A stretch of 64,000 nt of DNA, from positions 1-64,000 of the forward strand of contig CAIUSV010000021.1 in NCBI GenBank assembly GCA_903901915.1. The letters run 5' to 3'. A program made the position numbers and the translations under genes. The first letter of the stretch is position 1. Each line of letters starts with the position of its first letter. This stretch comes from an uncultured Rhodospirillaceae bacterium. GTDB lineage: Bacteria; Pseudomonadota; Alphaproteobacteria; Rhodospirillales; Magnetospirillaceae. Of this stretch, positions 44,769 through 62,548 are shown piece after piece. The notes under the pieces were generated by a model that saw only the letters and a list, made by a program, of their open reading frames with translations, ran no database searches and was not told the origin of the DNA.

Positions 44769-44783
44769 GTCTGGAGGGCGAGC

Positions 44784-46427: not shown

Positions 46428-46429
46428 AC

Positions 46430-46447
46430 GGGGCGGGGGAGCGCCCC
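46430..46447 (+). terminator. Weak hairpin after the CoA ligase gene
   Basis: GGGGCG and CGCCCC form a 6-bp GC stem with a 6-nt loop directly after the stop codon, followed by TCGTT. It may end the ligase transcript, but the stem is short and the T-run poor. Confidence 0.35.
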
Positions 46448-46531
46448 TCGTTCCCCCGGCGCTTGCCGGATTGTGGCGGTGTGGGCATGATGACGCCGCT
46501 CCGTTCCCGACTTTTCAGGTCTGATCCGCCG

Positions 46532-47050
46532 ATGTCAACCCAGCCCAAGGTCTATCTTGCCGGCCCCGCGGTATTTCATCCGGCAGCCAAGGCATTGCTT
46601 GAATACCTGATAGAGGTGTGTGCCGCCCACGGTCTGGACGGCATCCGTCCGTTCGAGCCCGATCCGGCGCAGGCCGAATTGCCGCCCGCCGAACGGGCGG
46701 CGCTGATTCGCCAGGGCAATATCGACCGGATTCGCGGCTGCGACATGGTGATTGCCTGTATTTCGCCATTCCGCGGGCCGGGGGCCTGCCCCGGTACCAC
46801 TTGGGAAATGGGCTACGCCGAGGCGCTGGGCAAGCCGGTGGTGGCGTGGTGCGAGGAGACTACGCCCTATATCGCCCGGGTTCCCCACGACCGCGACGAC
46901 GACGGCCGGGTGTTCTGCCTGCAACACGGCATGCAGGTGGAGGATTTCGGGCTGAGCGATAATCTGATGTTCACCGCCGGTGGCGTGGCGGTGCAGCCGG
47001 ACTTCGAGGCTGCCGTCCGGCTGGCCCGCAAACTGGCCGACGGGCCATGA
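46532..47050 (+). CDS. Nucleoside 2-deoxyribosyltransferase family protein
   Basis: 172 residues from the ATG at 46532; no good ribosome-binding site is near it, and an ATG at 46487 is an alternative. Motifs: KVYLAGPAVFHP at the start, RQGNIDRIRGCDMVIACISPFRGP and GTTWEMGYAEALGKPVVAW, with the Glu in this last motif as the likely nucleophile. The family exchanges or hydrolyses bases on deoxyribonucleosides in salvage. It lies between the CoA ligase and the sulfur locus without obvious functional link to either. Confidence 0.85.
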   Translation: MSTQPKVYLAGPAVFHPAAKALLEYLIEVCAAHGLDGIRPFEPDPAQAELPPAERAALIRQGNIDRIRGCDMVIACISPFRGPGACPGTTWEMGYAEALGKPVVAWCEETTPYIARVPHDRDDDGRVFCLQHGMQVEDFGLSDNLMFTAGGVAVQPDFEAAVRLARKLADGP

Positions 47051-47059
47051 TTGCAATAG

Positions 47060-47112
47060 TCTAGTAGAAATATAGATAAATTAATTGACATGGCGCCCGC
47101 CTCTGCTAGGCT
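47060..47112 (+). promoter_or_regulatory. AT-rich control element and promoter, plus-strand side of encapsulin locus
   Basis: TCTAGTAG at 47060-47067 begins a 28-bp AT-rich stretch. TTGACA (47085-47090) with TAGGCT (47107-47112), 16 bp apart, makes a plausible promoter 47 bp before the small-protein gene. The same 8-bp word stands in the cysE promoter on the far side of the locus. Confidence 0.55.
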
Positions 47113-47158
47113 GCCCTCAGCCGGTCCTGTTTCGACCGGCGAGGCTCCGGTGGAGGCG

Positions 47159-47392
47159 ATGGACATGACGATTCTGGTTCGGGTTTCCGAAGGCCCCCGA
47201 TTGATCAGCCGGCGGGTCAATGATCCCTGGCGGTACGGCGAACCCGATATCGCCGATGTGATGGCCGACCCCATCGTCCATCTGCTGATGCGGCGCGATG
47301 GGTTGGTGCCCGACGCGGTCTGGCCGGTGGTGCGTGACGCCCAGGCGAGACTTGGAGGCCGTCTTTGCCGGTTGAACGCCCAGGCGGCATGA
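47159..47392 (+). CDS. Small protein of unknown function in the encapsulin locus
   Basis: 77 residues; GGTGGAGGCG precedes the ATG, and an ATG two codons later (MTILV) is also possible. No signal, membrane helix or metal motif. The sequence (ILVRVSEGPRLISRRVNDPWRYGEPDIADVMADPIVHLLMRRDGL) has an amphipathic middle and ends basic. Its stop overlaps the start of the XRE-cupin gene by 4 nt, so the two are translationally coupled. I do not recognise the family; the context suggests a role in sulfur regulation or compartment function. Confidence 0.65.
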   Translation: MDMTILVRVSEGPRLISRRVNDPWRYGEPDIADVMADPIVHLLMRRDGLVPDAVWPVVRDAQARLGGRLCRLNAQAA

Positions 47393-47997
47393 CGATGGAT
47401 GCGTCGGCCGCGGCGCTGCCCGGTTTGGACGCCGCCGCTATTATCCCGCTGGTGGGCGAGAACCTGCGTCGGCTGCGCACCCGCAACGGCCTGTCGCTCG
47501 ACCGGTTGGCCAAGGCGTCCGGTGTCAGCCGCGCCATGCTGGGGCAGATCGAACTGGGGCGGTCGTCGCCGACCATAGCCGTTCTCTGGAAGGTCGCGCG
47601 CAGCCTGGACGTGCCGCTGTCGGCCTTTACCGCGACGACCGGCGGAGATGACGTGGCGGTGTTGCGCGCTCACCGCGGCAAGGTTCTGACGTCGCGCAAC
47701 GGCCGCTATTCCCTGCGCGCCCTGTTTCCGTTTCCCTCGCGCAGCCGGGTGGAGTTCTACGAGGTGCGGCTGGCCTCCAAGACCGTCGAGGAGGCCGAGC
47801 CGCACCCGGCCGGCACCGTCGAGAATCTGGTGGTGGCGCAGGGAAGGGTGGAAATCCAGGTCGGCGGCGATCGCCACCAGTTGGAGTGGGGCGACGCCAT
47901 CCGCTTCAACGCCGATTTGCCCCACGCCTATCGCAACGATGGGCCGGTCGAGGCGCTGATCTATCTGGTGATGATCGCGCCCGAAAGCGGGGCGTGA
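47389..47997 (+). CDS. XRE-cupin transcriptional regulator
   Basis: 202 residues; ATG at 47389 overlaps the previous stop, and the ATG two codons on is an alternative. Residues about 20-75 form the helix-turn-helix (VGENLRRLRTRNGLSLDRLAKASGVSRAMLGQIELGRSSPTIAVLWKVARSLDVP). The C-terminal cupin (EAEPHPAGTVENLVVAQGRVEIQVGG...LEWGDAIRFNADLPHAYRN) would bind a small ligand. Regulators of this kind often control cysteine or amino-acid sulfur genes. It converges on the desulfurase gene with 7 bp between stops, and is the likely reader of the TCTAGTAG boxes. Confidence 0.88.
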   Translation: MTMDASAAALPGLDAAAIIPLVGENLRRLRTRNGLSLDRLAKASGVSRAMLGQIELGRSSPTIAVLWKVARSLDVPLSAFTATTGGDDVAVLRAHRGKVLTSRNGRYSLRALFPFPSRSRVEFYEVRLASKTVEEAEPHPAGTVENLVVAQGRVEIQVGGDRHQLEWGDAIRFNADLPHAYRNDGPVEALIYLVMIAPESGA

Positions 47998-48004
47998 CCG
48001 CGTC

Positions 48005-49861
48005 TTATCCCCGCTTTCCCCGCCCGCCCTGGAAGCGCAGCAGGGCATTCACCAGGGCATCGATATCCTCGAAGGTGTTGTAGAGCGCCAGCGACGGCCG
48101 TACCGTCGCCTCGACGCCGAAGCGGCGCAGGATCGGCTGGGCGCAATGATGGCCCGAGCGCACGGCGATGCCTTCGCGATCGAGTGCCTTGCCGATGTCC
48201 TCGGTGCGGCAGTCGTCGATGACGAAGGACAGCACGCCGGCCTTTTCCCTGGCGGTGCCGATCAGGCGCAGCCCCGGCACGGTCAGAAGTCCGCGCGTGC
48301 CGTAGGCCAGCAGTTCGTGCTCCCAGGCGGCGATGTTGCCCATGCCGATTCTCTCGACATAATCCAGCGCGGCCCCCAATCCGACCGCGTCGGCGATGTT
48401 GCCGGTGCCGGCCTCGAAGCGGGCGGGGGCGGGTTGGAACGCCGTCTTCTCGAAAGTGACGTCGGCGATCATGTTGCCGCCGCCCTGCCATGGCGGCATG
48501 GCCTCCAGCACCGACGTCTTGCCATAGACCGCGCCGATGCCGGTCGGGCCGAACACCTTGTGGCCGGAAAAGACGTAGAAGTCGCAGTCCAGCGCCTGGA
48601 CGTCCACCGCCATGTGTGACACCGCCTGGGCGCCGTCGACCAGCACGATGGCGCCGTGTCGATGGGCGATGGCGACCATCTCCGCCGCCGGGGTGACGGT
48701 GCCCAGCGCATTGGATACCTGGGTGATGGCGACGATGCGGGTGCGAGGGTTCAGAAGCCTTTCGTACTCGTCGAGGATGATCTGGCCGCTGTCGTCCACC
48801 GGCGCCACCCGCAACTTGGCTCCGACCTGGGCGCACAACTGCTGCCAGGGAACGATGTTGGCGTGATGTTCCAGCCACGAGACGACGATTTCGTCGCCTT
48901 CCCTGACGTTGCGGCCACCCCACGCCTTGGCGATCAGGTTGATGCCCTCGGTGGCGCCGCGCACGAAGACGATTTCCTCGGTCGAACCGGCGTTGAGGAA
49001 CCGCCGGGTCTTCTCGCGGGCGGCCTCGTAGGCGTCGGTGGCGCGCGCCGCCAGGGCGTGGGCGGCGCGATGGATGTTGGAATTCTCGTGCTCGTAGAAA
49101 TAGGCCAACCGCTCGATGACATGGCGTGGCTTCTGGGTGGTCGCGGCGTTGTCCAGCCAGATCAGCGGCTTGCCGTGTACCGTCTCTTGAAGAATGGGGA
49201 AGTCACGCCGGAACGAGGCGGCGTCGAACGGTCTGGTGCCATGGGCGGCGCCGCCGAGGTCGGGAACCAGATCGGGCCGCAATTCGATATCGAAGATGCC
49301 GGAGCCGGGGGTGGCCGACGGGGATGGTGCCGGCGATCGCGCGCCTTCGATGAAGGAAAAGTCCTGGTCGGGGTGGAGCCGGGGTGGTCCTTGCGGTGGT
49401 GGCGGCAGATCGGGGACGGCGCTATCGGGCACTTCGGGAGTTCCCGGCCGCACCGAAAGGGCGGTGGCATGGTCGGGCGGCACCAACCGCACCACGCTGC
49501 CCAGCAGGTTGGCGATGTTGCGCAGGTCGGTCTCGCCCGGAACGACCGTAGGCGGGAAGGCGGCGGGATTACCGGGGGGCGCCGCCGGCGCGGCGGCCAG
49601 CGGCCCTACCTGGGGCACCTGCGGTACCGGGGTGACGTTGCCCATCGAGGGCGGCGCCGGCATGCCCGGCGGCACCAGTCCGCCGGTGGGCGCCGCCTCG
49701 ATCACCGGAACCGAGGGGGGCGCGACGCCGATGGACGGCATTGCGTGCCCAGGCCCCGCCGAGAACAGGGCATTGGCCATCTGGGCGATCAGCCTTGCGT
49801 CGGGGGCTCCGGCGAAGCCGCCCGCCGGTTCCCCCCAGGTCTCGATGCCGCGCTCGCTCAT
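48005..49861 (-). CDS. Cysteine desulfurase with long disordered N-terminus, encapsulin cargo
   Basis: 618 residues from the ATG at 49859-49861, which overlaps the encapsulin stop. Residues about 210-618 are a SufS-type desulfurase: PLP Lys435 in FSGHKVFGPTG, catalytic Cys573 in RSGHHCAQP, His in EHHANIVPW. Residues 1-205 are rich in Pro and Ala and look disordered, broken by short conserved-looking islands (ARLIAQMANALFSA, DLRNIANLLGSVVRLVPPD, HPDQDFSFIEGA). In family 2 encapsulin systems the desulfurase N-terminus directs packaging into the shell. The enzyme removes sulfur from cysteine, giving alanine and a persulfide. Confidence 0.95.
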   Translation of the reverse strand: MSERGIETWGEPAGGFAGAPDARLIAQMANALFSAGPGHAMPSIGVAPPSVPVIEAAPTGGLVPPGMPAPPSMGNVTPVPQVPQVGPLAAAPAAPPGNPAAFPPTVVPGETDLRNIANLLGSVVRLVPPDHATALSVRPGTPEVPDSAVPDLPPPPQGPPRLHPDQDFSFIEGARSPAPSPSATPGSGIFDIELRPDLVPDLGGAAHGTRPFDAASFRRDFPILQETVHGKPLIWLDNAATTQKPRHVIERLAYFYEHENSNIHRAAHALAARATDAYEAAREKTRRFLNAGSTEEIVFVRGATEGINLIAKAWGGRNVREGDEIVVSWLEHHANIVPWQQLCAQVGAKLRVAPVDDSGQIILDEYERLLNPRTRIVAITQVSNALGTVTPAAEMVAIAHRHGAIVLVDGAQAVSHMAVDVQALDCDFYVFSGHKVFGPTGIGAVYGKTSVLEAMPPWQGGGNMIADVTFEKTAFQPAPARFEAGTGNIADAVGLGAALDYVERIGMGNIAAWEHELLAYGTRGLLTVPGLRLIGTAREKAGVLSFVIDDCRTEDIGKALDREGIAVRSGHHCAQPILRRFGVEATVRPSLALYNTFEDIDALVNALLRFQGGRGKRG

Positions 49862-50799
49862 GCGAACTTCTTGTCGTAGTCGAAGTAGCGGTCGACCTCG
49901 ACATCCTCCAGCACGCCCAGGGCGTCCTCGGTCAGTACCGCCGACGAGCAATAGAGCGAGATCAGGTAAGAGGCGATGGCCTTGCGGTTGATGCCCATGA
50001 ACCGCACCGACAGCGACGGCGATACCTCGCCGGGAACGCCGGGCTGGAACAGGCCGACCACGCCCTGCTTCTTTTCGCCGGTGCGCAACAGCAAGATGTT
50101 GGTCTTGCCATTGCCGGAAATTGTCAGCTTGTCGCTGGGCACCAGCGGTAGGCCGCGCCAGGTCAGGAATGGGGTGCCGAACAGATTGACGGTGGGCGGC
50201 GGCACGCCGCGCTTGGTGCATTCGCGGCCGAAGGCGGCGATCGCCTTGGGATGGGCCAGGAAGAAGGCGGGTTCCTTCCATACCTTGGTGATCAGCTCGT
50301 CAAGATCGTCGGGAGTTGGCGCTCCGCCGCGGGTCTTGATGCGCTGGCCCTTGGCGGCGTTGGTCAGCAGGCCGTATTCGGCATTGTTGATCAGCTCGTA
50401 TTCCTGCTTTTCCTTCACCTTTTCGATCAGCAGGCGAAGCTGTTCCTGAATCTGGTCGATGGGGTGGGAATAGAGGTCGGAGACGCGGGTCTGGACGTCG
50501 AGCACGGTGGTGACCGCGTTCAGCGAGTATTCGCGCGGGTTCTCTTCGTAGGCGACGAAGGTTTCGGGCAGATCGGCATCGTTGCGCGGGCTGCACCGCA
50601 CCTCGGTCGAAGCGTCGATGGCGGCTTCCTTGACCCGATTCAGGCGATAGATGCCCGCCTCGACCGGGGTCCACGGCAGGAACGACACCAGCCAGCGCGG
50701 CGTGATTCCTGACCACTGGGCGCGGGTCTTGGTGGCGTTGGCAAGCTGCCGTGCCGCCTGTTCGTTCAAAGTGCGGCGGATCTCGGTGTCCTCGGACAT
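49858..50799 (-). CDS. Family 2 encapsulin shell protein
   Basis: 313 residues; AAGGAGACGACCAT precedes the ATG. The protein has the family 2 N-terminal arm (SEDTEIRRTLNEQAARQLANATKTRAQWSGITPRWL then LSFLPWTPVEAGIYRLNRV-like text), an HK97-like P-domain with YELINNAEYGLLTNAAKG, and an end SPSLSVRFMGINRKAIASYLISLYCSS...LGVLEDVEVDRYF. SrpI-like shells of this family self-assemble into icosahedra around a cysteine desulfurase. The desulfurase gene follows with a 4-nt overlap, fixing the pairing. No cyclic-nucleotide domain is inserted, so it is the 2A rather than 2B type. Confidence 0.95.
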   Translation of the reverse strand: MSEDTEIRRTLNEQAARQLANATKTRAQWSGITPRWLVSFLPWTPVEAGIYRLNRVKEAAIDASTEVRCSPRNDADLPETFVAYEENPREYSLNAVTTVLDVQTRVSDLYSHPIDQIQEQLRLLIEKVKEKQEYELINNAEYGLLTNAAKGQRIKTRGGAPTPDDLDELITKVWKEPAFFLAHPKAIAAFGRECTKRGVPPPTVNLFGTPFLTWRGLPLVPSDKLTISGNGKTNILLLRTGEKKQGVVGLFQPGVPGEVSPSLSVRFMGINRKAIASYLISLYCSSAVLTEDALGVLEDVEVDRYFDYDKKFA

Positions 50800-50891
50800 A
50801 TGGTCGTCTCCTTGGGGGAGGTGGAAAGCCAGTTGCGGCGATCATAGGCGCCGCCGCCGGGATGCCGAGGGCGGCCCGATGGAGTGATGCG

Positions 50892-50917
50892 CTTTCCTCC
50901 GTTATGACGGAGGAAAG
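50892..50917 (-). promoter_or_regulatory. 11-bp stem-loop between DUF2325 and encapsulin genes
   Basis: CTTTCCTCCGT and ACGGAGGAAAG form a perfect 11-bp stem with a 4-nt loop that spans the DUF2325 stop codon. No T-run follows on the minus strand. It probably protects the upstream mRNA end or marks a processing site, so shell and cargo may be expressed at a different level from cysE. Confidence 0.65.
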
Positions 50918-51270
50918 GTGGGCATATTGGAGGCGACCGCCGCCAGCGCCTGGACCACGGCGCCGATTCCGGTGCTGCGCAACGGCTTGAACGGCTTGTC
51001 GAAGCGGCGGCACAGGCTTTTCACCTTGCTTTGCGCCTGATGGCTGACGCAGCCCACCGGGAACAGCACCGCATCGGCGCGTTCCAGGTGATTGGACAGT
51101 TTGGTCATGCTTTGCTCGACGCCGCCGTCGTGATGGACGAAGGCGCCGCCACGCTCCTCGACCATGCGGCGCAGATGGGCGACATGCTGGTGGCGGCCCC
51201 CGACATAGAGGATCAGCCGTCCGGCAAGGTCGAGGGTATCGGCGGCGGCTAGGGGAGGCGACATGGTCAT
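50902..51270 (-). CDS. DUF2325 protein
   Basis: 122 residues; GGAGACA precedes the ATG, with a second ATG two codons later. The DUF2325 pattern is clear: LILYVGGRHQHVAHLRRMVEERGGAFVHHDGGVEQSMTKLSNHLERADAVLFPVGCVSHQAQSKVKSLCRRFDKPFKPLRSTG. The fold is a small Rossmann-like domain with a conserved Cys in PVGC and His/Lys-rich loop; function is not established. It lies 9 nt after cysE and before the encapsulin, so it belongs to the sulfur operon. The conserved Cys makes sulfur or redox binding an attractive guess. Confidence 0.85.
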   Translation of the reverse strand: MTMSPPLAAADTLDLAGRLILYVGGRHQHVAHLRRMVEERGGAFVHHDGGVEQSMTKLSNHLERADAVLFPVGCVSHQAQSKVKSLCRRFDKPFKPLRSTGIGAVVQALAAVASNMPTFPPS

Positions 51271-51279
51271 TGTCTCCGG

Positions 51280-52149
51280 TCAGATGGAGTAGTCGAAGGC
51301 CTCATAGGCCAGGGTGTGGAGCAGTTGTTCCGTCCGGCGCGGGTCCTCGTCCTCGCCGGCACTTCGGATGACCTTGGCAGGAATGCCGGCGACGGTGGAA
51401 CAGGGGGCGACCGAGCGCAGCACCACCGATCCGGCGGCGATGCGCGAATGGGCGCCGATCTCGATATTGCCCAGGATCTTGGCACCGGCACCGATCATGG
51501 CGCCCCGGCGCACCTTGGGGTGACGGTCGCCGCTTTGTTTGCCGGTGCCGCCCAGGGTGACGTTTTGCAACAGGGATACGTCATCCTCGATGACGGCGGT
51601 CTCGCCGACCACCAGCCCGGTGGCGTGGTCGAGAAAAACCCCGATTCCTATCCGCGCGGCCGGATGGATGTCGGTCTGGAACACATCCGACGACCGGCTT
51701 TGCAGGTAAAGGGCGAAGTCGCGTTCACCGGCGCCCCACAGCCAGTGGGCCAGGCGATGGGTCTGAATGGCGTGGAAGCCCTTGAAATAGAGGAACGGTT
51801 CGATGAAACGCTCGGTGGCGGGATCGCGCTCGACCACCGCGCCGATGTCGGCACGCAGCGCCAGGGCGATGCCGTTATCCGCCTTGGCGGCGCGGGCAAA
51901 GGTTTCGGTCAGCAGCGGCAGCGACACCACGTCGGTCTTCAGCCGGGCCGAGATGCGATGGAACACCGCAGCCTCGAACGAGGGCTGGTTCAGGATCGAT
52001 TCGATGAACAGCGAGGCCAGCATCGGTGCCCTGGCCAGGGCGTCTTCGGCTTCCTTGCGCAGTTCCGACCACACCGTGTCGGCGAAATGACCAAGGTCGC
52101 GCGCCCGGGCTGAAATCAGGGTCAAGCGTCCCGCCGCTGATCGGGCCAT
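51280..52149 (-). CDS. cysE: Serine O-acetyltransferase
   Basis: 289 residues; GAGGAAACGAAC precedes the ATG. The N-terminal helical part (WSELRKEAEDALARAPMLASLFIESILNQPSFEAAVFHRISARL) and the left-handed beta-helix (DIHPAARIGIGVFLDHATGLVVGETAVIEDDVSLLQNVTLGGTGK...RHPKVRRGAMIGAGAKILGNIEIG) are typical. It acetylates L-serine with acetyl-CoA, the committing step of cysteine synthesis. As first gene of the encapsulin operon it supplies cysteine precursor for the desulfurase cargo. CysE-desulfurase-shell clustering is known for family 2 encapsulins. Confidence 0.93.
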   Translation of the reverse strand: MARSAAGRLTLISARARDLGHFADTVWSELRKEAEDALARAPMLASLFIESILNQPSFEAAVFHRISARLKTDVVSLPLLTETFARAAKADNGIALALRADIGAVVERDPATERFIEPFLYFKGFHAIQTHRLAHWLWGAGERDFALYLQSRSSDVFQTDIHPAARIGIGVFLDHATGLVVGETAVIEDDVSLLQNVTLGGTGKQSGDRHPKVRRGAMIGAGAKILGNIEIGAHSRIAAGSVVLRSVAPCSTVAGIPAKVIRSAGEDEDPRRTEQLLHTLAYEAFDYSI

Positions 52150-52172
52150 GTTCGTTTCCTCGTCGCAGAAAT

Positions 52173-52222
52173 ATATAAAACTACTAGATAATTATAGTGG
52201 TTGATTGGTTGGCCGGCGTCAA
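52173..52222 (-). promoter_or_regulatory. cysE-encapsulin operon promoter with AT-rich operator
   Basis: On the minus strand a perfect TATAAT (52196 to 52191) stands 20 bp after TTGACG (52222 to 52217), a long spacer. Directly after it comes TATCTAGTAGTTTTATATA, where a repressor would cover the start of transcription. The core TCTAGTAG (CTACTAGA on the plus strand, 52181-52188) is shared with the control element at 47060. The rest of the interval up to 52445 holds nothing else I can support. Confidence 0.6.
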
Positions 52223-52445
52223 TGCCTTTCCGACGGTGCCGCCGCCAGTGCGCAACCGAGGCAGCCGATTTCGCGGCTGAATGGCTTTGACCGGCTGATA
52301 TCGTAATCGTTCCCGGAAGGTTGGCGCCCAGCTAAGGCTTGCCAATTTCCAATCCGGTGACGGCACCCGAAACGACTTTCCGGAGGCCCCGAGTTGATCT
52401 TACACTACCGCTGTGATGGGGTTGATTGTAAGCGAGGCGAAAATC

Positions 52446-54548
52446 ATGGGCCGGATACTCAGGCATATTGCCGGTGCCGCAGAAATTCGTAGGGAATTCA
52501 GCCTTGTCGAAGTGGGGGTAATGGCGCTGGCCCTGGCGGCCATGCACCTGTCCACGCACCACTACAGCTACCTGTTGTTCCACAGTATCGTGGAGATGTT
52601 CAGCATCTTCATCGCGATAACCGTCTTCATCATTGTTGTAAATACTGCGCATTTGGTAAAAAACGAATATATTATTGTTATTGGTGTTTCGTACCTGTTT
52701 GTTGGTGTTTTGGATTTTGTGCATACTATTGCATTCAAGGGTATGCCGATTTTTACTGACTATGATTATTATGCGCCACAACTGTGGATCGCCGCAAGAT
52801 ACATGGAATCCATCAGCATGCTCGGCGCCTTCCTTTTCCTGGGAAGCCGGCGACGCTTCAACATCGCGTTGCTGTCGGTGGTGTATTTTGCCGTGACCGC
52901 AACGGTCCTCGCCTCGATCCTTCACTACAAGACCTTTCCGATTTGCTTCGTGCCGGGGAAGGGACTCACTTCCTTCAAGATGTACAGCGAGTTTGTGATT
53001 TGCGGGATCGTTGCCGTTGGCCTTACGGTTCTGTACCTCCGCCGGCACCTGTTCGATCCGAGGGTGTACAGGCTGATCAGCACGTCGATGGTTCTGATGA
53101 TCGCCATGGAGCTGTGCTTCACGTTCTATATGTCGGCCACGATGAGCGATGTCTTCAACGAAATCGGGCACCTGCTCAAGATCTGCGTGTTTTATCTGGT
53201 CTACAAGGCCGTGGTGGTGACCGGATTACGCGATCCCATCGGCCTACTGTTTCGCGACCTCAAGGCGCGGGAGGAAAGCTTGGGCACAGCCAATGCCCGC
53301 CTCGCCGACGTGGCCGACGAAATGCTGGCGTCGCGAAGCCGCCTCAAGGCGATCACCGACAGCCTGTTCGAGGGGGTGTTGGTGGTCGACGGGGCGGGAA
53401 TCATCACGTTTTCCAATCCTTCCGCCGCCCGTATGCTGGAGTGCGGCGCCGATCGGCGCGACCTCGAGGGGGTTGCCATCGATCAGGTCGCCCAGTTGGC
53501 CCCGGTCGGCGGCGAGACGGTTCCGGCGGGGCGGTCGTGGTGGTGCAGCGCGGCGGACGGCAGAACCCAGCGGTGGGACGATGCCCGGCTGGTGGTTCAG
53601 TCTGGCGGCGAACTGGATGTGGCCGTTGCCTGTTCGCCGCTGGAGGGCGACGGGGCTAGCCGCGATACCGTCATATCGTTCCGCGACATGGGGGATGGCG
53701 ACGACGGCCGGGGGCCGTCCGCTTCGGTGATTTCCTTCCGCGACATCGGCGCGGTGAAGCAGGCGCAGCGCGAGGCGCTACAGACCTCGCGGCTGGCCAG
53801 TGTCGGGCAGCTGGCGGCGGGGATCGCCCACGAGATCAACACCCCGGCCCAATACATCAGCGACAATCTCGGTTACATCGAGGACGGTCTGGGGACGCTG
53901 TGCGCGGTGGTCCAGGCCGGCGGCGCGGCGACGGACAAGAAGATCGCCCGCCTGCTGCAAGAGATGCCGCAGGCGGTGGCGGAATCGCGGGAAGGCGTGG
54001 CCCAGATCGCCCGTATCGTACTGTCGATGAAGGAGTTCTCGCATCCCGGTACCACGACCAAGACCGCCACCGACATCAATCGGGCCATCGACAATACCCT
54101 GACGGTGTCCCGTAACGCCTGGAAGCATGTCACCGAGGTCGAATGTCGCTTCGATCCGATGCTGCCGCCGGTGCAGTGCCATACCGGCGAAATGAATCAG
54201 GTCTTTCTCAACCTGATCCTGAACGCCGCCCAGGCCATCGAATCCTCGGGCAAGCAACTGCCCGGCCGCATCGTCATCACCACCAGCCATTGCAGCGATC
54301 AGGTCGAAATCCGCATCGAGGACAGCGGCACGGGAATCCCCGCTTCCATCCGGGAACGGATCTTCGATCCATTCTTCACCACCAAGGCGGTGGGTAAGGG
54401 CACCGGCCAGGGACTTGCCATCTGCCGCGACGTGGTGGTGGTCAAGCACGGTGGTTCCCTGACGGTGGGCGGGGTCGAGGGCGAAGGTGCCGTCTTTACC
54501 GTCCGGCTGCCCATCGACGGCGGCCACGACGCGGCGGTCGAGACCTGA
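52446..54548 (+). CDS. MASE3-PAS sensor histidine kinase
   Basis: 700 residues from the ATG at 52446, which has GAGGCGAAAATC upstream; GTG/ATG at 52413-52418 are less well placed. Residues 1-265 form a MASE3 membrane sensor of about eight helices ([41 protein letters not shown]). A coiled coil and PAS domain follow ([32 protein letters not shown]), then the kinase: His462 in [15 protein letters not shown]-box [19 protein letters not shown] and [13 protein letters not shown]. It overlaps the next gene by 1 base. The stimulus is unknown. The stretch 52620-52780, in the membrane part, is markedly AT-rich. Confidence 0.92.
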
Positions 54549-56095
54549 TGGCCGCCCGGATTCTGGTGGTCGATGACGAGCCGCTGATCCGGACTTCGCT
54601 GTCGCGGCGACTGAGCGAGCGTTTCGATCTGACCACCGCCGGCAGCGGCCCGGAAGCGTTGGCGGCGGTCGCCGCGGCGGTGGAGGCGGGACGGGGATTC
54701 GCCGCCGTGCTGTGCGACATGCACATGCCGGGCATGAACGGCCTGGACACCTTGGCGCGAATCAGGACGCTGTCCCCCGAGACCGTCGCCATCATGCTGA
54801 CCGGCGACGGTGACCGCCAGACGGCGATTGCCGCCATCAATCAGGGCAACATCTTCCGTTTCTACAACAAGCCGTTCGACGGCGCCGAATTGGGTGATGG
54901 CCTTGCCGCCGCGGTGCATCAGCACGATCTGCTGTGCTCGGAACGCCGGCTGGCCGAGAACGAGGAGCGGTGGCGGCTGGCGCTGGAAGCGGTCGGCGAC
55001 GGCGTGTGGGACTGGACGGTGCCGTCGGATACCGCGATCTATTCCGAAAGCTGGCATCGGATGCTGGGAGTGCCGCCGCCGCCGGTTTCCCTGCGCGCCT
55101 CGTATTGGTGGGACCGGGTTCATCCCCAGGATGCCGGTATGGTCGCCGCCCAGATCGCCCGGATGCTGCGCGGCGAGGATCGCATGTTCCAATGCGAACA
55201 CCGTCTGCGATGCAGCGACGGCTCGTACCGTTGGTTTCTGGGCCGGGGGGTGGTGCTGTACCGTGGCGAGGACGGAGCGGCGCAACGGGTGATCGGCACC
55301 CACGCCGACGTCACCGACCGTCGTCTGAAGATGGCGTCTCTGGGGCGCATGGCGGCCGGCTTCGCCCACGAGATCAATACCCCGATCGGCGTCGCCGTGA
55401 CGGCGATTTCCGACGAGTTGGACACCCTGAGGAAGATCGGGTCGATGTTGGCGCAAGATAATGTCAGCGAAGCCGATCTGCGCTCGGAACTGGGCGCGAT
55501 CGAGGGCGCCGACCGGCTGGCCCTGGCCAATCTTCATCGCTGTGTCGACATGGTGCAGCGGTTCAAGCGATCGTTCGTCGATCAGGCGTCGGAACAGCCC
55601 CGGATATTCGACATGGCCGAGGTGATCGAGGACGTGCGTTTCTGTCTGCACGATCAGTTGAAGACCCTGCCGATTACCGTCGAGATCGACTGTCCGTCCG
55701 ACATCCGGATCGACGGTGTGCCCGGCCGTATCGAACAGATCCTGACCAACCTGATTCTCAACGCCGTCAGGCACGGATTCGCCGATGGCCAGCGCGGCGG
55801 GACCATCCGGGTCGTCGCCGCTCTTGACTGCGGCCGCCTGCGGATCGCGTTTTCCGACGACGGATGCGGCATGGCGCCGGAGGTGGCGGAACATGCCTTC
55901 GAGCCGTTCTTTACCACCGCGCGCGGCACCGGCGGCACTGGGCTTGGGCTGTTTCTGTGCTATAACATCGTGACCGTGGAGTTGGGGGGCGCCATCGTCT
56001 GCCGGAGTGCGCCCGACGAGGGAACGCGCTTCGAGATCGAGTTTCCGGTGACGCTGGCCGATGCCGGCGCCGCCACGAGCGAAGGTCCGCCATGA
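54548..56095 (+). CDS. Receiver-PAS-histidine kinase hybrid
   Basis: 515 residues. An N-terminal receiver (VVDDEP, phospho-Asp57 in [11 protein letters not shown], Lys in FYNKPFD) is followed by a PAS/PAC domain of the PAS_3 type ([22 protein letters not shown]...[30 protein letters not shown]) and a kinase core with His274 in [20 protein letters not shown] and [13 protein letters not shown]. With its receiver in front, it can take phosphate from the MASE3 kinase and answer with its own kinase. Its receiver and PAS start are near copies of those in the GGDEF protein of this operon. Overlaps the HD-GYP gene by 4 nt. Confidence 0.92.
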
Positions 56096-57633
56096 AGAAG
56101 CTGGTTCGCGACAGGGATACCGGCGTCGCGGGGGCCTCCACGTCCCGGCTGGCGTGGAAGGTGCTGCTGGTCGATGACGAACCGGACGTCCGCGCGGTGA
56201 CGCGGCTTTGCCTGCGCGATTTCGTCTTCGCCTCGCGTGGGCTTGAAATCCTCGAAGCCGGATCGGCGGCCGAGGCGCGCCAAGTCCTTGCCGCCCATCC
56301 CGATATCGCGATGGCGCTGATCGACGTGGTGATGGAGACCGACGACGCCGGTCTCAAGCTGGTCGAGTACATCCGCGACGAACAGCGCAACGCCATGATC
56401 CGGCTGATCATCCGCACCGGCCAGCCGGGCATGGCGCCGGAACGCTGGGTCATCGATCACTACGATATCGACGACTACAAGGATAAGAGCGAGCTTTCCG
56501 CCACCCGGCTGTACACCACGGTGCGCACGGCGATCAAGGCGTTCCGCGATCTTCAGGCCATCGACCTCAACCGGGCGGGGCTGGCCCAGCTGCTGCGCGT
56601 CGCCCCGGAAATCTATCGTCTCGGCGACCATTCGGTTGCCGAGTTCTTCCAGGGCGTGCTGACCCAGGTGGTCGGCCTGTGCAACCTGTCCGAGGCGGGC
56701 ATCCTTTCTACCATCGACGGGCTGGTCGCCACCATCGACGAAGCCGACGTCACCGTCCAGGCCGCCTTGGGGGGGATCGACAATTCGCCCCGCTTCGAGG
56801 AGATCAAGCGGCAATGTCTCGATGTGGTGCTGAATCGCCAGGAGGCCGAACGGCTGCGCAATGATTCCCTGGTGGTGCCCCTGACCAACGAGGGCGCGCC
56901 GGCCGGATACATCTATCTCGAATCGACGAGGCCGCTGTCACCCGAGGATATGGCGTTGATCCGCCTGATGGGGCAGCAATGTTCCAGCGCCTTCGAGAAT
57001 CTTCGGCTGCACGCCGATCTCCGGGAATCGTTCGGCCACGCCATCGACATGCTGGCCGAGGTCGCCGAGTTCAAGGACAAGACCACCGGCGATCACGTCG
57101 CGCGCATCGGCGAGTACACCCGGCTGCTGGCGGTCGAGATGGGAATTCCCGAGGACGAGGCCGCCGTCTACGGCGAGGCCAGCCGCCTGCATGATGTCGG
57201 CAAGGTCGGCATCGCCGACGATATCTTGCACAAGCCCGGTCCGCTGGTTGGTCCCGAGGTCGATGCCATTCGTTCGCATCCCGAGATCGGCGCCGCCGTG
57301 CTTGGTCATGACAAGTCGTTCGATCTGGCGCGCGAAATCGCCCTGGGGCACCACGAGCGCTGGGATGGCAAGGGATATCCGCGCGAGATGCCGTCGCGCC
57401 TGCTTCCCCTGGCGGCCCGCATCGTCACCGTGGTCGATGTGTTCGACGCCCTGGTCAGTGTCCGCCCCTATAAGAAGTCCTGGACCCCGGACCGCGCGGC
57501 GCAAGCCATCGAGCAGGGGGCGGGCAGCCAGTTCGACCCCGACGTGGTTCAGGCATTCATGGCTCTTTATCGGCGCGGCGTGTTTGCCCCCCTGATCCAA
57601 CGATGCATGATGGAAGCGCAGGTGGACCGGTGA
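56092..57633 (+). CDS. Receiver-DUF3369-HD-GYP phosphodiesterase
   Basis: 513 residues. Receiver at 22-150 (LLVDDEP, phospho-Asp78 in ALIDVVM), then DUF3369, a GAF-like sensory domain ([23 protein letters not shown]...[19 protein letters not shown]), then HD-GYP at about 340-500: His367-Asp368 in [30 protein letters not shown], His420-His421 and GYP at 428-430. All residues needed for cyclic di-GMP hydrolysis to GMP are present. A phosphorylated receiver would gate the activity. Confidence 0.94.
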
Positions 57634-58952
57634 CCGCCCGGGTACTGCTGATCGATGACGAACCGCTGGTGTTGACCTCGTTGTCGCGACGGTTGGGCGA
57701 TCGCTTCAACCTGGCGACGGCGGGCGGTGGTCCGGAAGCGGTGGCGGCGGTGGCGGCGGCGGTCGAGGCGGGACGGGACTTCGCCGCCGTGATGTGCGAC
57801 ATGCACATGCCGGGCATGAATGGTCTGGAAACCCTGGCGCGAATCAAGGCGCTGTCGCCGGAGACCGTCGCCATCATGCTGACCGGCGACAGCGACCGCC
57901 AGACCGCGATTTCCGCCATCAACCAGGGCGACATCTTCCGCTTCTACGTCAAGCCGTTCGACAGCGCCGAGCTTGGCGAGGGGATTGCCGCCGCCGTGCG
58001 CCAGCACGAATTGTTGCGCGCGGAACGTCGTCTCGCCGAGAACGAGGAACGGTTGCGGTTGGCGCTTGAGGCGGTGGGTGATGCCGCCTGGGACTGGAAT
58101 ACCATTACCGGCGAGTTGATCTGCTCGGAAGGCTGGCGGCGGATGCTGGGCCTGTCGGGGGGCGAGCCGACGACGGTGGAGGCGCAGTGGTTGTCGTTGA
58201 TCCTTCCCGACGACGCGGCGGCGGTCGCGGACGAAATCCGCCGCGTGCTGGACGGAAAAGGCGCGTTGCTGTCTTGCGAACATCGGTTGCGCCGTTCCGA
58301 TGGTGGCGAGCGGTGGGTTCTGGCGCGCGGCTCGGTATTGCGGCAAGGGCGCGACGGGTGTCCCGAGCGGCTGATCGGCACCTTTACCGATATCACCGAG
58401 CGTCGCCTGATGGAGGAAACCGTGCGTCGCCAGGCCGAAGAGCTGCGGATTCTGGCGGCCACCGATCCGTTGACCGGGTTGTGGAACCGCCGGAGCTTTC
58501 TCGAGAAAGCCGAGCACGAGGTTCAGCGGGCGCGGCGCTATGGCCGGGCGCTTTCGGTGGTCATGGTGGACATCGACTTCTTCAAGAAGGTCAACGACAC
58601 CCACGGTCATGATGGTGGTGATGCCGTGCTCCGGCGATTTTCCCAGGTTCTCAAGAGCGGCGTGCGGCAAAGCGATGTCGTCGGGCGTTGGGGGGGGGAG
58701 GAATTCGTCCTGCTGCTGCCCGAGACCGACATTGCGGCGGCGGGGGCGGTGGCCGATACCCTGAGACGGCAGGTCGCGGCCGCGCCGGCCGATTTGCCCG
58801 ACGGCGCCACCCTGGCGATTACCGCCAGCTTCGGTGTGTCTACCTTGTCCGGAGAGGGCGACGAGGTGACCGACATGCTGCGGCGGGCGGACGAGGCGTT
58901 GTACGAGGCCAAGCATTCCGGCCGTGATCGGGTGGCGTGCCGGGTGGCATGA
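57630..58952 (+). CDS. Receiver-PAS-GGDEF diguanylate cyclase
   Basis: 440 residues from the GTG at 57630, which overlaps the previous stop by 4 nt (GTGA) and puts the phospho-Asp at residue 57, exactly as in the paralogue at 54.5 kb; an ATG at 57603 is possible. Receiver, PAS_3 domain (AWDWNTITGELICSEGWRRMLGL), then GGDEF with the active site RWGGEEF and an upstream RQSD inhibitory site five residues before it. It makes cyclic di-GMP from GTP with product feedback. Together with the HD-GYP protein, the operon can set cyclic di-GMP up or down. Confidence 0.93.
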   Translation: MTARVLLIDDEPLVLTSLSRRLGDRFNLATAGGGPEAVAAVAAAVEAGRDFAAVMCDMHMPGMNGLETLARIKALSPETVAIMLTGDSDRQTAISAINQGDIFRFYVKPFDSAELGEGIAAAVRQHELLRAERRLAENEERLRLALEAVGDAAWDWNTITGELICSEGWRRMLGLSGGEPTTVEAQWLSLILPDDAAAVADEIRRVLDGKGALLSCEHRLRRSDGGERWVLARGSVLRQGRDGCPERLIGTFTDITERRLMEETVRRQAEELRILAATDPLTGLWNRRSFLEKAEHEVQRARRYGRALSVVMVDIDFFKKVNDTHGHDGGDAVLRRFSQVLKSGVRQSDVVGRWGGEEFVLLLPETDIAAAGAVADTLRRQVAAAPADLPDGATLAITASFGVSTLSGEGDEVTDMLRRADEALYEAKHSGRDRVACRVA

Positions 58953-59056: not shown

Positions 59057-59120
59057 CTTGTGGCGACATAGGGTTTGTTGGTTCCCGTCTTGTACTTTTT
59101 GCATACAGGGGAGGATCAAG

Positions 59121-59567
59121 GTGGCTGCTGCTCAAGTCGCGAACGGGGCTATTCCGTCCATGGTGGCTCCGGCCGGTGCCAATGCCGCCGCGGCGGCGGG
59201 GGAAGTCGAGCGCGAGGTTGCCGCCGCCAAGGCCGGCACCGCCAAGACCGGCGCGGCCAAGGCTGCCGCCGTCAAGGCTGCTCCGGCGGCTCAGGCCAAG
59301 GTCGCGGCATTACCGGGGGCCGGGGCCAAGGTGGCTGCCGGCGCGGGCAAGGCGGGGCTTGGCGGCGGTGCAGGGGCCAAGGTGGTTGGCGGGTCGCTGT
59401 GGACCGGCAAGGGCCTTGGTCTCGGCCTTGGTCTCGGCCTGGGGGCCTGGGGGCCGGTGATCATCGGTGTCGTCGGTGCGGCGGCCGTCTATGCCTACAT
59501 GAAGAGTCGCGATATCGAGGCCCTGCAGAACGACGAGGAAGTCGAGCTGCGCGAGGCTCTGGCCTGA
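59121..59567 (+). CDS. mms6: Magnetosome membrane protein Mms6
   Basis: 148 residues from the GTG at 59121, which follows GGGGAGGATCAAG; longer frames upstream have no ribosome-binding site. The N-terminal half is Ala/Lys rich and low complexity. Then come [17 protein letters not shown] (Leu-Gly repeat, 97-112), a membrane helix (to about 127) and the acidic tail [20 protein letters not shown], with seven Asp/Glu that bind iron and guide magnetite crystal shape. The match to Magnetospirillum Mms6 is unmistakable, though the tail differs at several positions from the version I recall. Confidence 0.96.
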
Positions 59568-59583
59568 ATTGGGGGAGAGGAAA

Positions 59584-59907
59584 ATGGCTGAAGCTGTCGT
59601 TCGCAGCACGCTTGGTTCACGCAGCACGGTGATGGCGGCGCTGTCCTATCTCAGCGTGTTGTGTTTCGTCCCCCTGCTGATGGATCGGGACGACGAGTTT
59701 GTCTATTTCCATGCCAAGCAGGGATTGGTGATCTGGATGGTCGGGGTGCTGGCGCTGTTCGTGCTGCATGTCCCGATGATCGGCAAGTGGGTGTTCGGTT
59801 CGGTTTCCATGGTGGTGGTGGTCTTTTCCATCCTGGGCTTGGTGTCGGTGCTGTTCCAGCGCGCCTGGAAGCTGCCGCTGGTCAGTTGGCTGGCCGACCG
59901 CATCTGA
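59584..59907 (+). CDS. mmsF: Magnetosome protein MmsF
   Basis: 107 residues; GGGGGAGAGGAAA precedes the ATG. Three membrane helices of the DUF4870 fold ([63 protein letters not shown]). The [15 protein letters not shown] loop and the end [17 protein letters not shown] match MmsF of Magnetospirillum. MmsF controls the growth and shape of magnetite crystals in the magnetosome. It follows mms6 by 16 nt. Confidence 0.96.
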
Positions 59908-59924
59908 CGGTGTGGATATTGGCG

Positions 59925-59965
59925 GGGGCGGCGGGCGGCGACGCCTGCCGCCCCTGTCTTTTCCC
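59925..59965 (+). terminator. Terminator-like hairpin between mmsF and mms36
   Basis: GGGGCGGCGGGCG and CGCCTGCCGCCCC pair over 13 bp with one G-U wobble and a GCGA loop, followed by TGTCTTTTCCC. It would at least weaken read-through from mms6-mmsF into mms36-mms48. No other regulatory site is clear in the 154-bp gap. Confidence 0.65.
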
Positions 59966-60061
59966 TTCCTTTCAGTAAGTTCTTGCCAAACGGGCGGACG
60001 ATCGGGAAGATCGCCCCGGCCGGTGCCCCGTGCCCGGTTATAGGCCGCGTGGCCGGCGGAA

Positions 60062-61126
60062 ATGGAGCCGATGGACAGTCAGCAGGAAGTGCGGTCGTCC
60101 GGCGCAGGCCGGCGCGTTCGGCAGCCACGAGGTGGTGGTGGCGGCACCTCCACGATGCTCGTGGTTCTGGCGCTGGTGGTCGGCGGCGTGGCGGCGTGGC
60201 CGTGGCTTCAGCCCCGGCTGGCGGGGCTTCCCGGTCCCTGGGCGGCGTGGCTGGGCGATCGTGGCGCGGCGGTTTCCGCCAACTCCTCTCAACCGATGCC
60301 GACCCTGGCCGAGCGGGTCGAGATGCTGGAAGCCTCGTTGGCGCCGTTGGCGATACGTTTCGAATATATCGAACAACGCCTCACCCAGCTTGAAGCCGTC
60401 GCGCGCAAGCCGGCTGCGACCGAACCGCGCCGCGACGCCGGGGTAGATCCGGCCCAGCTGGCCAAGCTGGCCGAGGATGTCGCCAAGTTGAGAACCGACT
60501 TGGATACCGTCCGCAAGTTCTCGGGCGAGGATGGTGGTGCCGCCAAGTTGTCCGGTGCGGTGGAAAAGGCCGAGGCCGCCTTCCGCCGCATGGCCGAGCG
60601 ACGCGATCAAGCGCCCCTGTTCCTGACGGCGCTGGGTCAGTTGCGCGAAGCGGTGGATCGTGGTGGCCCCTATCAAGTCGAGCTGCGGGCGGCGGCGGCG
60701 TTGGCCGACAAGGCCGCCATCGGCCGGCTTGCCCCCCTGGGCGGCGGCGCCGCGACCGGCATCGTCACCCGCGTCGGTCTGGCCGAGGGTTTTCGCTCCG
60801 CCGCCGCGTCGGCCCGGCGGGCGGACGCTCTGGCCGGTACCGACTGGGCGATGGCGACGCTGCGGCACTGGCTGGGCGCGGCGGTGACCGTCCGGCGGGC
60901 CGATGGCAGCGAGGACGGCCTGGAGGGGGCCCTGTCCGGCGCTGGCCGACTTCTGGCCGGTGGCGATCTTGCCGGCGCCGTGGTGGTGCTGCGTCATGCC
61001 GAGGGAGCGGGGGCGGCGATGCTGGCGCCCTGGCTGGAAGCGGCGGAGCAGCGTCTGGCGGCCGATGCCGCCCTGTCCGAACTGTCGGCGGCGGCGTTGG
61101 CCACCGCCGCTCACCGGGACGAATGA
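60062..61126 (+). CDS. mms36: Magnetosome-associated protein Mms36 (mitofilin-like)
   Basis: 354 residues; ATG at 60062, with another in-frame ATG three codons on. One membrane helix near residues 28-48 (TSTMLVVLALVVGGVAAWPWL), then a coiled coil (LAERVEMLEASLAPLAIRFEYIEQRLTQLEAVA, LAEDVAKLRTDLDTVRKF) and a helical domain to the end (LGGGAATGIVTRVGLAEGF...WLEAAEQRLAADAALSELSAAAL). This is the COG4223/mitofilin layout seen beside heme genes in alphaproteobacteria. Order after mmsF and before the HemY-like gene identifies it as Mms36, whose loss alters crystal size. Confidence 0.88.
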   Translation: MEPMDSQQEVRSSGAGRRVRQPRGGGGGTSTMLVVLALVVGGVAAWPWLQPRLAGLPGPWAAWLGDRGAAVSANSSQPMPTLAERVEMLEASLAPLAIRFEYIEQRLTQLEAVARKPAATEPRRDAGVDPAQLAKLAEDVAKLRTDLDTVRKFSGEDGGAAKLSGAVEKAEAAFRRMAERRDQAPLFLTALGQLREAVDRGGPYQVELRAAAALADKAAIGRLAPLGGGAATGIVTRVGLAEGFRSAAASARRADALAGTDWAMATLRHWLGAAVTVRRADGSEDGLEGALSGAGRLLAGGDLAGAVVVLRHAEGAGAAMLAPWLEAAEQRLAADAALSELSAAALATAAHRDE

Positions 61127-61129
61127 GCC

Positions 61130-62548
61130 ATGGTACTGCGCCTGATCGTCCTTCTCGTCCTGGTTTCGCCGGTGGTGATCGCCACCTTGTGGTTCTCCGA
61201 CAATCCCGGCACCGTCCAGGTGGAATGGCTGGGATGGCGGGTGGATACCAACATGCCGATCCTGCTGGCCGGCCTGCTGGTGGTGTTTCTGTTGCTGTCG
61301 GCGCTCGGTCGGCTATCGGGCCTGTTGGCGGATCTGCCGGCCCGGCTGGGGCATTCGCGGCAGGCCAAGGGACGGGAAAAAGGCATGGTGGCGTTGCTGG
61401 CCGCCCTGGACGCCGCCGAATCCGGGGATAACGGCGAGGGCCGCCGCCTGGGCGCCGAAGCGGCCCGGCTGCTCGGCAGTCCCGCCCTGGCGGCGCGGCT
61501 GGACCGGCTGATGCCGCGTGCGGCGACGCCGCCGGTCGAGGCGGCCCGGCCGGAGCCGACCCGGAAACGTTCGTTCCTGTCGCCGAAGGCTCCCTTGGCC
61601 AAGCCATCCCCGCAGCCTAAGCCATCCCCACCCAAAGCCGCGCCGCCGCCCTCCACCGCGGTGGAGGAGACGCCGCCGCCGCCCGTTGCCGTCACCGTGC
61701 GCGACGAGGATCGCGCCGCTTTCGCCGAGCGAGTGCGCAACCGGGCGTGGGATGCCGCCCTGGCCGGACTGGAAGAGGCGGTGGTGGCCGCGCTGCTGCC
61801 GCCGTCGGTGGCGGCGCACTGGCGGGCGGTGGTGCTGGCGGCCCAGGCGGTCGAGGCCGCCGACAGTGATGCCGGGCGGGCGCTGCATCTGGCGCGAGAC
61901 GCGGTGGTGGCCGATCCCGGCTTTTTGCCGGCGGCACTGCAGCTGATACGCCTGGAGGTGGCGGCTGGTCGTCCCGCCGAAGCCGAAGCCGCTTTGAAGT
62001 CGGCATGGCGCAAGGTTCCGGCGCGTCCGTTGCTCGATGCCTGCGCCGTCCTGTGGGCGGATGACGATGCCGCTGCCCACCTGGCGCGGATGGAGGCGTT
62101 GGCGGAAAGCAATCCCGGCCATCGCGAGGGCCACCTTGCCGCCGGCGAGGCGGCGGTGGCTGCGGCCAAATGGGGGGTGGCGCGGCGCCACCTGATGGCG
62201 GCGATCAAGATCGCCCCGGATATTCTCGCCTGCCGGCTGATGGCCGAAGTCGAGGAAAAGGAATCCGGCGGTTCCGTCAACGCCGCCGATATCTGGCGGC
62301 GCAAGGAGCGCGAGGCCTTGCCGCCACCGGCGTGGCATTGCTCGGTCTGCGGCACGGTTCAGCCGGAGTGGGTGGAGTGCTGCCCGTCGTGCGGCGGTGT
62401 CGCCACGGTGGAGTGGACGCAGCGGGCCGAGGACCCGAGGGATGCCGTTTCAATTCCGGTGGTTTCCGATCCGGTTCTTTCCGAGCCGGTCAGGGACGAT
62501 AACATTGCCGTCGAGCCGGAAAGTACTACCGCCCCGCCAGTGTTGTAA
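61130..62548 (+). CDS. mms48: Magnetosome-associated protein Mms48 (HemY-N/TPR, zinc ribbon)
   Basis: 472 residues, starting 3 nt after the mms36 stop. Two membrane helices (LIVLLVLVSPVVIATLWFS and ILLAGLLVVFLLLSALG) make a HemY N-terminal domain. A Pro-rich linker (about 135-190) leads to helical TPR-like repeats (LHLARDAVVADPGFLPAALQLIRLEVAAGRPAEAEAALKSAW). The C-terminal part has a four-Cys knuckle, CSVCG and CPSCG 16-17 residues apart, and an acidic end. In Magnetospirillum Mms48 acts with Mms36 in limiting crystal size. Its end overlaps the convergent DUF445 gene by 23 nt. Confidence 0.88.
   Translation: MVLRLIVLLVLVSPVVIATLWFSDNPGTVQVEWLGWRVDTNMPILLAGLLVVFLLLSALGRLSGLLADLPARLGHSRQAKGREKGMVALLAALDAAESGDNGEGRRLGAEAARLLGSPALAARLDRLMPRAATPPVEAARPEPTRKRSFLSPKAPLAKPSPQPKPSPPKAAPPPSTAVEETPPPPVAVTVRDEDRAAFAERVRNRAWDAALAGLEEAVVAALLPPSVAAHWRAVVLAAQAVEAADSDAGRALHLARDAVVADPGFLPAALQLIRLEVAAGRPAEAEAALKSAWRKVPARPLLDACAVLWADDDAAAHLARMEALAESNPGHREGHLAAGEAAVAAAKWGVARRHLMAAIKIAPDILACRLMAEVEEKESGGSVNAADIWRRKEREALPPPAWHCSVCGTVQPEWVECCPSCGGVATVEWTQRAEDPRDAVSIPVVSDPVLSEPVRDDNIAVEPESTTAPPVL

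Follow-up and report, generated by a model that had tools for sequence, protein, structure and literature searches.

A family 2A encapsulin operon with a DUF2325 gene and a predicted sulfur-limitation operator near magnetosome genes

An encapsulin locus beside magnetosome genes raises the question of whether its protein compartment serves magnetite formation or a separate sulfur response. We address this question for 64,000 nucleotides from an uncultured Rhodospirillaceae bacterium (contig CAIUSV010000021.1, positions 1 to 64,000; hereafter the window), in which genes for an encapsulin shell, a cysteine desulfurase (CyD), a serine acetyltransferase and a DUF2325 protein lie 7 kb from mms6. Our analysis makes it likely that the locus is a family 2A sulfur compartment controlled by sulfur limitation, with DUF2325 as an accessory. 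The locus belongs to a known system, of which it is a genuine and well-conserved example, and it carries an accessory gene specific to its lineage as well as a predicted sulfur operator.

The operon and its products

The genes and sites of the locus are listed below, with profile scores in bits against the cut-off of each model.

52175..52189, minus strand: predicted operator ATCTAGTAGTTTTAT, upstream of cysE, conserved in a six-genome upstream alignment
51280..52149, minus strand: cysE, serine O-acetyltransferase, first gene of the operon (TIGR01172, 225.6 against 210.65; SATase_N and Hexapep domains)
50902..51270, minus strand: DUF2325 protein, 122 aa (PF10087, 83.4 against 33.6)
49858..50799, minus strand: family 2A encapsulin shell, 313 aa (NF041162, 523 against 380; PF19307, 360 against 23)
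48005..49861, minus strand: CyD, SufS-like cysteine desulfurase and predicted cargo, 618 aa (NF041166, the family 2A cargo model, 859 against 800)
47389..47997 (probable start 47389), plus strand: XRE-cupin transcription factor (HTH_3 and Cupin_2 domains)
47090..47392, plus strand: small orphan protein of at most 100 aa, conserved from about residue 24, with no match in Pfam or NCBIfam
47059..47073, plus strand: second predicted operator GTCTAGTAGAAATAT, preceding the small-XRE pair, with two mismatches to ATCTAGTAGNNTNAT

The cysE, DUF2325, shell and CyD genes are a single tight minus-strand operon. Nine nucleotides (nt) separate cysE from DUF2325 and 102 nt separate DUF2325 from the shell gene, the shell and CyD genes overlap by ATGA, and all four frames are open in the window. 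On the opposite strand the small orphan and XRE-cupin genes also overlap by ATGA, and the XRE-cupin gene is convergent with the operon, not divergent from it, with a 7-nt gap to the CyD gene. The first-pass annotation had described a family 2A encapsulin and desulfurase locus forming one operon with DUF2325, opposite a small protein and an XRE-cupin regulator. Open reading frames (ORFs) and profile matches recover every gene it named, shell and CyD score above the cut-offs of the NCBI family 2A models, and spacing and strands agree with the proposed operon.

The shell aligns over all 306 residues of SrpI at 67.6% identity and retains the glycine and proline of the fivefold pore, SrpI Arg192 and Arg304 being replaced by lysine. 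It also passes the family 2B model (439 bits against a cut-off of 400), with the best stretch covering only profile positions 209-449 of 450. We nevertheless assign it to family 2A, because it has no internal cyclic-nucleotide-binding domain of the 2B type, PF19307 being its sole Pfam match, and because its alignment to SrpI runs end to end. Its solved relatives are SrpI (6x8m) and chains named 'major membrane protein I'.

The catalytic part of CyD is 72% identical to that of Synechococcus elongatus CyD, and the SufS lysine and cysteine motifs are kept; from their positions in these motifs, we take Lys435 to be the pyridoxal phosphate lysine and Cys573 the catalytic cysteine. Residues 1-212 are of low complexity (21% proline; 52% proline, alanine, glycine and serine together) and are predicted to be the cargo-loading region. 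The first of two published loading motifs (LARLANEFFS-like) is present there as IAQMANALFS, with 0/200 shuffles as good (p 0.005). The same motif reaches p<=0.05 in 51/77 CyD N-termini, the S. elongatus control itself reaching only p 0.09.

A further comparison is a family 2A encapsulin reportedly from Acinetobacter. A desulfurase-loaded family 2A shell (Benisch 2024) is cited for sulfur storage in PMC12407261, and we liken the predicted system in the window to it through that citing sentence only. The best-described relative is the SrpI-CyD system of S. elongatus, in which SrpI increases under sulfate starvation and the N-terminus of CyD mediates its loading, as reported in the text of PMC8049743. 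The window locus shares with it the shell, the similarity of CyD, the low-complexity CyD N-terminus, an upstream serine acetyltransferase gene and, as proposed here, the sulfur-starvation setting. The gene orders differ: S. elongatus has cysK-epsC-srpI-cyd-rhodanese (NC_007595), whereas in the window a SATase_N-type cysE and DUF2325 precede the shell gene and, unlike in S. elongatus with its rhodanese gene after cyd, the rhodanese profile has no match in window positions 43001-58000. A survey text (PMC8346489) counts 1281 family 2A operons with a desulfurase, 813 of them in Proteobacteria, and shares with the window the shell and desulfurase and serine acetyltransferase as an accessory gene. 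Among the 88 shell loci that we clustered, CyD accompanied 81, serine acetyltransferase 60 and cysteine synthase 28, in a procedure whose ORF picking retained the shell itself in only 82.

We infer assembly, cargo loading, sulfur storage and control by sulfur along the following lines. CysE would supply O-acetylserine for cysteine synthesis, and CyD would be packed, through its low-complexity N-terminus, into the shell formed by the 49858-50799 protein. Cysteine may then enter via the fivefold pore, CyD would take its sulfur, and this sulfur could be kept inside the shell or handed on. DUF2325 would act in the same sulfur response as a soluble protein with a Rossmann-like fold; its conserved cysteine and histidine residues would suit persulfide or metal handling outside the shell, although its biochemical role is a guess. 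The operon would be under a sulfur-limitation operator, and the magnetosome genes would lie outside this mechanism.

The DUF2325 protein

The order cysE-DUF2325-shell-CyD, whose recurrence the first-pass annotation had proposed as a check, recurs in the genus, and DUF2325 lies between cysE and the shell gene in all ten shell-bearing genomes among the 17 that we compared. Five of the seven shell-less genomes have only a long DUF2325 protein and two have none, so that the short type occurs in 0/7. The shell tree places the rows of the genus in one well-supported group of 12, which also holds a genome of the family with no DUF2325 gene by its shell (G004). The best reading is that DUF2325 is a lineage-specific accessory, belonging to this operon only in the Paramagnetospirillum lineage.

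A possible alternative, which we do not favor but which survives better than any other, is that DUF2325 rides along in the operon as a passenger, a small gene without any role in the compartment. Its absence beside shells outside the genus fits such a passenger: none of the five shell-bearing genomes elsewhere in the family has DUF2325 next to the shell, and no DUF2325 relative stands beside any of 74 named shell loci outside the genus, some of which end at contig ends. So does a related protein, Campylobacter Cj1384, which is encoded next to katA and tied to oxidative stress (PMC9426514). As described there, Cj1384 is short and cysteine-bearing like the DUF2325 protein of the window and its expression is stress-linked, but its neighbor and its stress are different ones and it has no encapsulin tie. 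Set against a passenger are the retention of the gene in 10/10 shell-bearing genomes and the absence of the short type from 7/7 shell-less ones, together with the company that short DUF2325 genes keep elsewhere. The dyad ATCTAGTAGAT, a predicted sulfur-limitation operator discussed below, lies upstream of four of eight unlinked short copies (<=2 mismatches, <=160 bases upstream; for L142 and L145 measured from a start codon inside the first ORF), compared with a mean of 0.28 and a largest value of 1 for 29 control dyads. None of seven long paralogues has such an upstream dyad. Three unlinked short copies (L142, L144 and L148), of which only L142 has the dyad, have metN-type and metI genes within about 3 kb; the metN-type scores are 433-458 bits, under the cut-off of 499.7, and metI is above its cut-off in both regions scanned.

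The family member G004 has an arrangement of its own. Its short DUF2325 gene (L145) is divergent from a frame that by eye resembles the small protein, followed by an Rrf2 gene, and its shell gene, on another contig, has a one-mismatch site upstream; three other shells of the family that we tested have no upstream dyad. Separately, genome G027 has two shell matches (L087, L096), one of just 41 residues near a contig end, and the same contig has a DUF2325 gene about 12 kb away.

Nine residues are invariant in an alignment of 14 short DUF2325 sequences (H47, D48, G49, G50, C74, S76, H77, K84 and C87), and one long paralogue has a serine at the C74 position. An AlphaFold2 model built from seven close sequences is Rossmann-like (mean predicted local distance difference test score, pLDDT, 77; predicted template modeling score, pTM, 0.68), and its fold comparisons gave general Rossmann-like matches, with no rhodanese among the matches listed. 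Comparison of the sequence with solved structures returned nothing convincing (best E 0.83), and no relatives in viral contigs were confirmed. We considered and set aside DUF2325 as a replacement for rhodanese: apart from the S. elongatus control, the rhodanese profile matches 14/90 loci, all of which lack DUF2325, but this mutual exclusion carries no weight because most loci have neither.

DUF2325 is absent from the main texts, as distinct from figures and supplements, of PMC8346489 and PMC8049743. A DUF2325 protein is named in PMC6934571 as a possible secondary cargo of a different, anammox encapsulin. Our literature searches on DUF2325, encapsulins and magnetotactic bacteria, family 2A and Rrf2 sulfur regulons found, among the papers listed, no report of DUF2325 inside a family 2A operon, and we regard its membership of the operons of the genus as modestly new. 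A bolder proposal is that short DUF2325 is an unrecognised class of sulfur-response protein that works directly with the encapsulin by accepting, binding or giving up the sulfur that CyD frees, the 100-aa protein being a second unrecognised member. We offer it tentatively and consider it doubtful.

A predicted operator and its candidate regulators

Part of the case for control by sulfur limitation comes from the dyad ATCTAGTAGAT, which in exact form or as a near copy stands before the operon, the small-XRE pair and four of the eight unlinked short DUF2325 genes mentioned above, and in relatives before some genes for sulfate and sulfonate uptake. When the DNA preceding cysE is aligned for six of the ten genomes with a shell (G000, G037, G039, G040, G041 and G049), it is poorly alignable except for one conserved block, CTAGTAG (in G037, CTAGTGG), with an AT-rich stretch after it. 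The exact pattern CTAGTAGNNTNAT occurs in 6/10 shell-bearing and 0/7 shell-less genomes of the genus, upstream of cysE in all six, and just once in the genome from which the window comes; in G047 a second copy lies upstream of a convergent cysK-rrf2 pair, before cysK. At a setting of two mismatches the window has two matches, compared with a shuffle mean of 0.32, and 4/100 shuffles have at least two. With at most one mismatch allowed, 11 sources from the genus contain 12 core sites; the 29 permuted dyads average 0.72, the largest value being 7. Two of these sources are parts of one genome, and related genomes do not supply independent sites. In G037 exact cores stand before DUF2325 and rrf2, and the core before cysE has two mismatches; the XRE-cupin frame of G035 is preceded by a core with one mismatch.

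The dyad also precedes some sulfur-uptake genes. Two Magnetospirillum fulvum genomes gave 20 and 23 relaxed strand-matches, from which ten places were picked for viewing. In one (L163) a SsuA-family sulfonate-binding protein, above its cut-off, begins 41 bases downstream of the site; in another (L171) a sulfate-binding protein, also above its cut-off, lies on one side with a gene for the small protein divergent from it, and a metN-type gene, below its cut-off, lies by a second site. A third (L165) has a SsuA-like second downstream frame that scores below the cut-off. A two-mismatch site also lies before a sulfate-binding protein gene in G037 (L162), in a region chosen for its Rrf2 gene. In two fulvum regions (L168 and L170) NifH-like genes lie more than 1 kb downstream of dyad matches and bring to mind a possible nitrogenase-like sulfur-scavenging system. 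As a separate observation, frames resembling a sulfonate-type ATP-binding cassette (ABC) transporter lie by the encapsulin operon of G039 (L104:13746-19967), and the one that was scanned scores 135.7 with the SsuA family against a cut-off of 163.5.

Which protein would bind the dyad is less clear-cut. The XRE-cupin protein could be a dedicated switch of this module that binds both flanking dyads and governs no wider sulfur regulon, an explanation that we judge unlikely. Its close orthologues (65-70% identical) occur in 6/10 shell-bearing genomes, the window's own included, and in 0/7 shell-less ones, always at the encapsulin locus, and the two sites in the window flank exactly the two transcription units. 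However, G037, G039 and G047 have an extra Rrf2 gene at the locus instead and yet carry the same dyad, which weakens the XRE-cupin protein as sole regulator; the dyad is also found before the sulfate and sulfonate uptake genes described above and before the rrf2 gene of G037. As the dyad is shared by both kinds of locus, a genome-wide Rrf2 protein, with a close relative in 17/17 genomes, appears the better candidate binder. The Rrf2 gene of the genome from which the window comes (L161) has no site in the stretch viewed. For the Rrf2 protein encoded at the G039 locus, the highest NCBIfam score after that of the superfamily model is with CymR, among regulators of the CymR/IscR type, but at 88 bits against a cut-off of 195 it is not CymR by that model. 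E. coli SutR (YdcN) is an XRE-cupin protein. The title of a reference in PMC8464067 calls SutR a sulfur-utilisation regulator.

The small orphan protein is probably a real gene of the same response. It has homologues with E below 1e-15 in 8/10 shell-bearing genomes and in 1/7 shell-less ones, there beside a CyD scrap, and in the fulvum and molischianum genomes it lies away from the encapsulin locus.

Several findings weigh against a sulfur-controlled compartment of this kind. The second cargo motif (AASPYYFLDG-like) was not found in the window CyD, where the best match has p 0.46; it reaches p<=0.05 in 36/77 CyD N-termini and is published for most, not all, members (PMC8049743), so it is not strictly defining. 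The dyad accompanies both Rrf2 and XRE-cupin genes and thus has no single assigned regulator. No operon site was found in two of the ten shell-bearing genomes (G036 and G042), and outside the genus the dyad is not enriched, with two sites in 74 loci against a control mean of 3.9. At three mismatches the extended dyad matches in all 17 genomes, and reversed-pattern controls are of similar size in several of them; in the window's own genome this setting listed 17 strand-matches and none for the control. Of two places viewed in that genome beyond the window, one (L200) has an exact core before a frame with no identification and the other (L201) a dyad match with no clear sulfur gene. Among the ten fulvum regions, two have a clear and one a weak sulfur-uptake gene by the site, and the other seven have no clear one by scan (L164 and L170) or by eye (the rest), L164 carrying an amino-acid permease and a class III aminotransferase. 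A simple promoter scan of 52120-52420 and 46990-47160 found no promoter-like site, the scan for promoters and terminators returning one terminator-like match at 47109-47122. Finally, all counts across the genus ignore shared ancestry.

The magnetosome neighborhood

The remaining features around the locus are the following.

46463..47050: nucleoside 2-deoxyribosyltransferase gene, shortly before the small-XRE pair
52413..58952: between cysE and mms6, a MASE3 sensor kinase (Pfam) and three proteins that we read as having receiver domains
59058..62548: mms6-mmsF-mms36-mms48, named by reading the ORFs

The ORF reading of the mms genes agrees with the 7 kb to mms6 noted at first pass. The contig extends to 68,566, 4,566 bases past the window (64001-68566, L101), and its frames there read as mamE, which has magnetochrome matches, and as what we take to be mamH, mamI and mamJ. 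The distance from the operon is thus 7 kb to mms6 and roughly 12 kb to the mamH-read start of a mamAB-type cluster. The genome has at least seven magnetochrome matches, and these, together with an Mms6 protein match and the frames past the window, bear out the first-pass view that this bacterium carries magnetosome genes.

This position on a single contig is what would suggest a role in magnetosome formation, with the compartment as a supply or buffer of sulfur and iron-sulfur clusters; the presence of CyD sequences near magnetosome genes in two relatives would suggest the same. We consider this explanation very unlikely, as the shell and magnetosome markers occur independently. Counting magnetochrome from the matches listed, the 17 genomes of the genus comprise ten with the shell and 11 with magnetochrome: six have both, four the shell only, five magnetochrome only and two neither, one of these two being 79% complete (Fisher p=1.0). 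A search with the Mms6 protein matched the same 11 genomes. Across 55 genomes of the family, the shell/magnetochrome table is 7/8/15/25 (Fisher p=0.55). The four shell-bearing genomes of the genus with no magnetochrome or Mms6 match are probably two of M. fulvum, one of M. molischianum and a Phaeospirillum bin, and the full operon is present at the fulvum and molischianum loci, whereas five marker-bearing members of the genus have no shell. The link between stored sulfur and magnetite that the first-pass annotation had raised does not find support in this distribution.

Linked copies in other genomes are broken. In G040 (L102:18416-19721) CyD ends near residue 255 and runs into an mmsF fragment, beside a full-length shell and genes read as ftsZ-like, mamZ, mamX, mamY and feoAB; no intact CyD was found elsewhere in that genome, and an assembly error at the CyD-mmsF join is possible. 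The closed relative G039 (4,967,148-base contig) has its intact operon about 0.9 Mb from the main magnetosome cluster, and a decayed second CyD (L124:9131-11128) about 30 kb beyond the last Mms-type gene matched, together with 1,474 bases that duplicate part of cysK and rrf2 at 99.3% identity. G034, which bears magnetosome markers and has no shell, keeps a 31-residue CyD scrap beside the small and rrf2 genes. In G037, G039, G041 and G049, no MamH, MamE or Mms match was found in the 20-kb stretch surrounding each intact operon. The flank of the magnetosome cluster looks like a place where the operon was rearranged and lost in some strains, not retained, and the adjacency in the window looks coincidental. 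As a side observation, the same dyad-like sequence lies inside a magnetosome-region ORF in two genomes (L173:1831 and L174:2269), probably as conserved coding sequence.

That the locus is a relic with non-functional shell and cargo is the least credible explanation: decay is seen in relatives (the truncated CyD of G040, the scrap of G034 and the broken duplicate of G039), but the window's frames are open and its catalytic lysine and cysteine motifs, pore residues and operator are kept.

A family 2A sulfur compartment controlled by sulfur limitation, with DUF2325 as its accessory, is thus the reading that we prefer. For the partners of family 2A encapsulins, and for the entry and exit of sulfur, this lineage offers named candidates in DUF2325 and the small orphan protein, together with a predicted switch. 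For magnetotactic bacteria it offers a sulfur compartment beside magnetosome genes, a striking neighborhood that should not be taken as a functional link.

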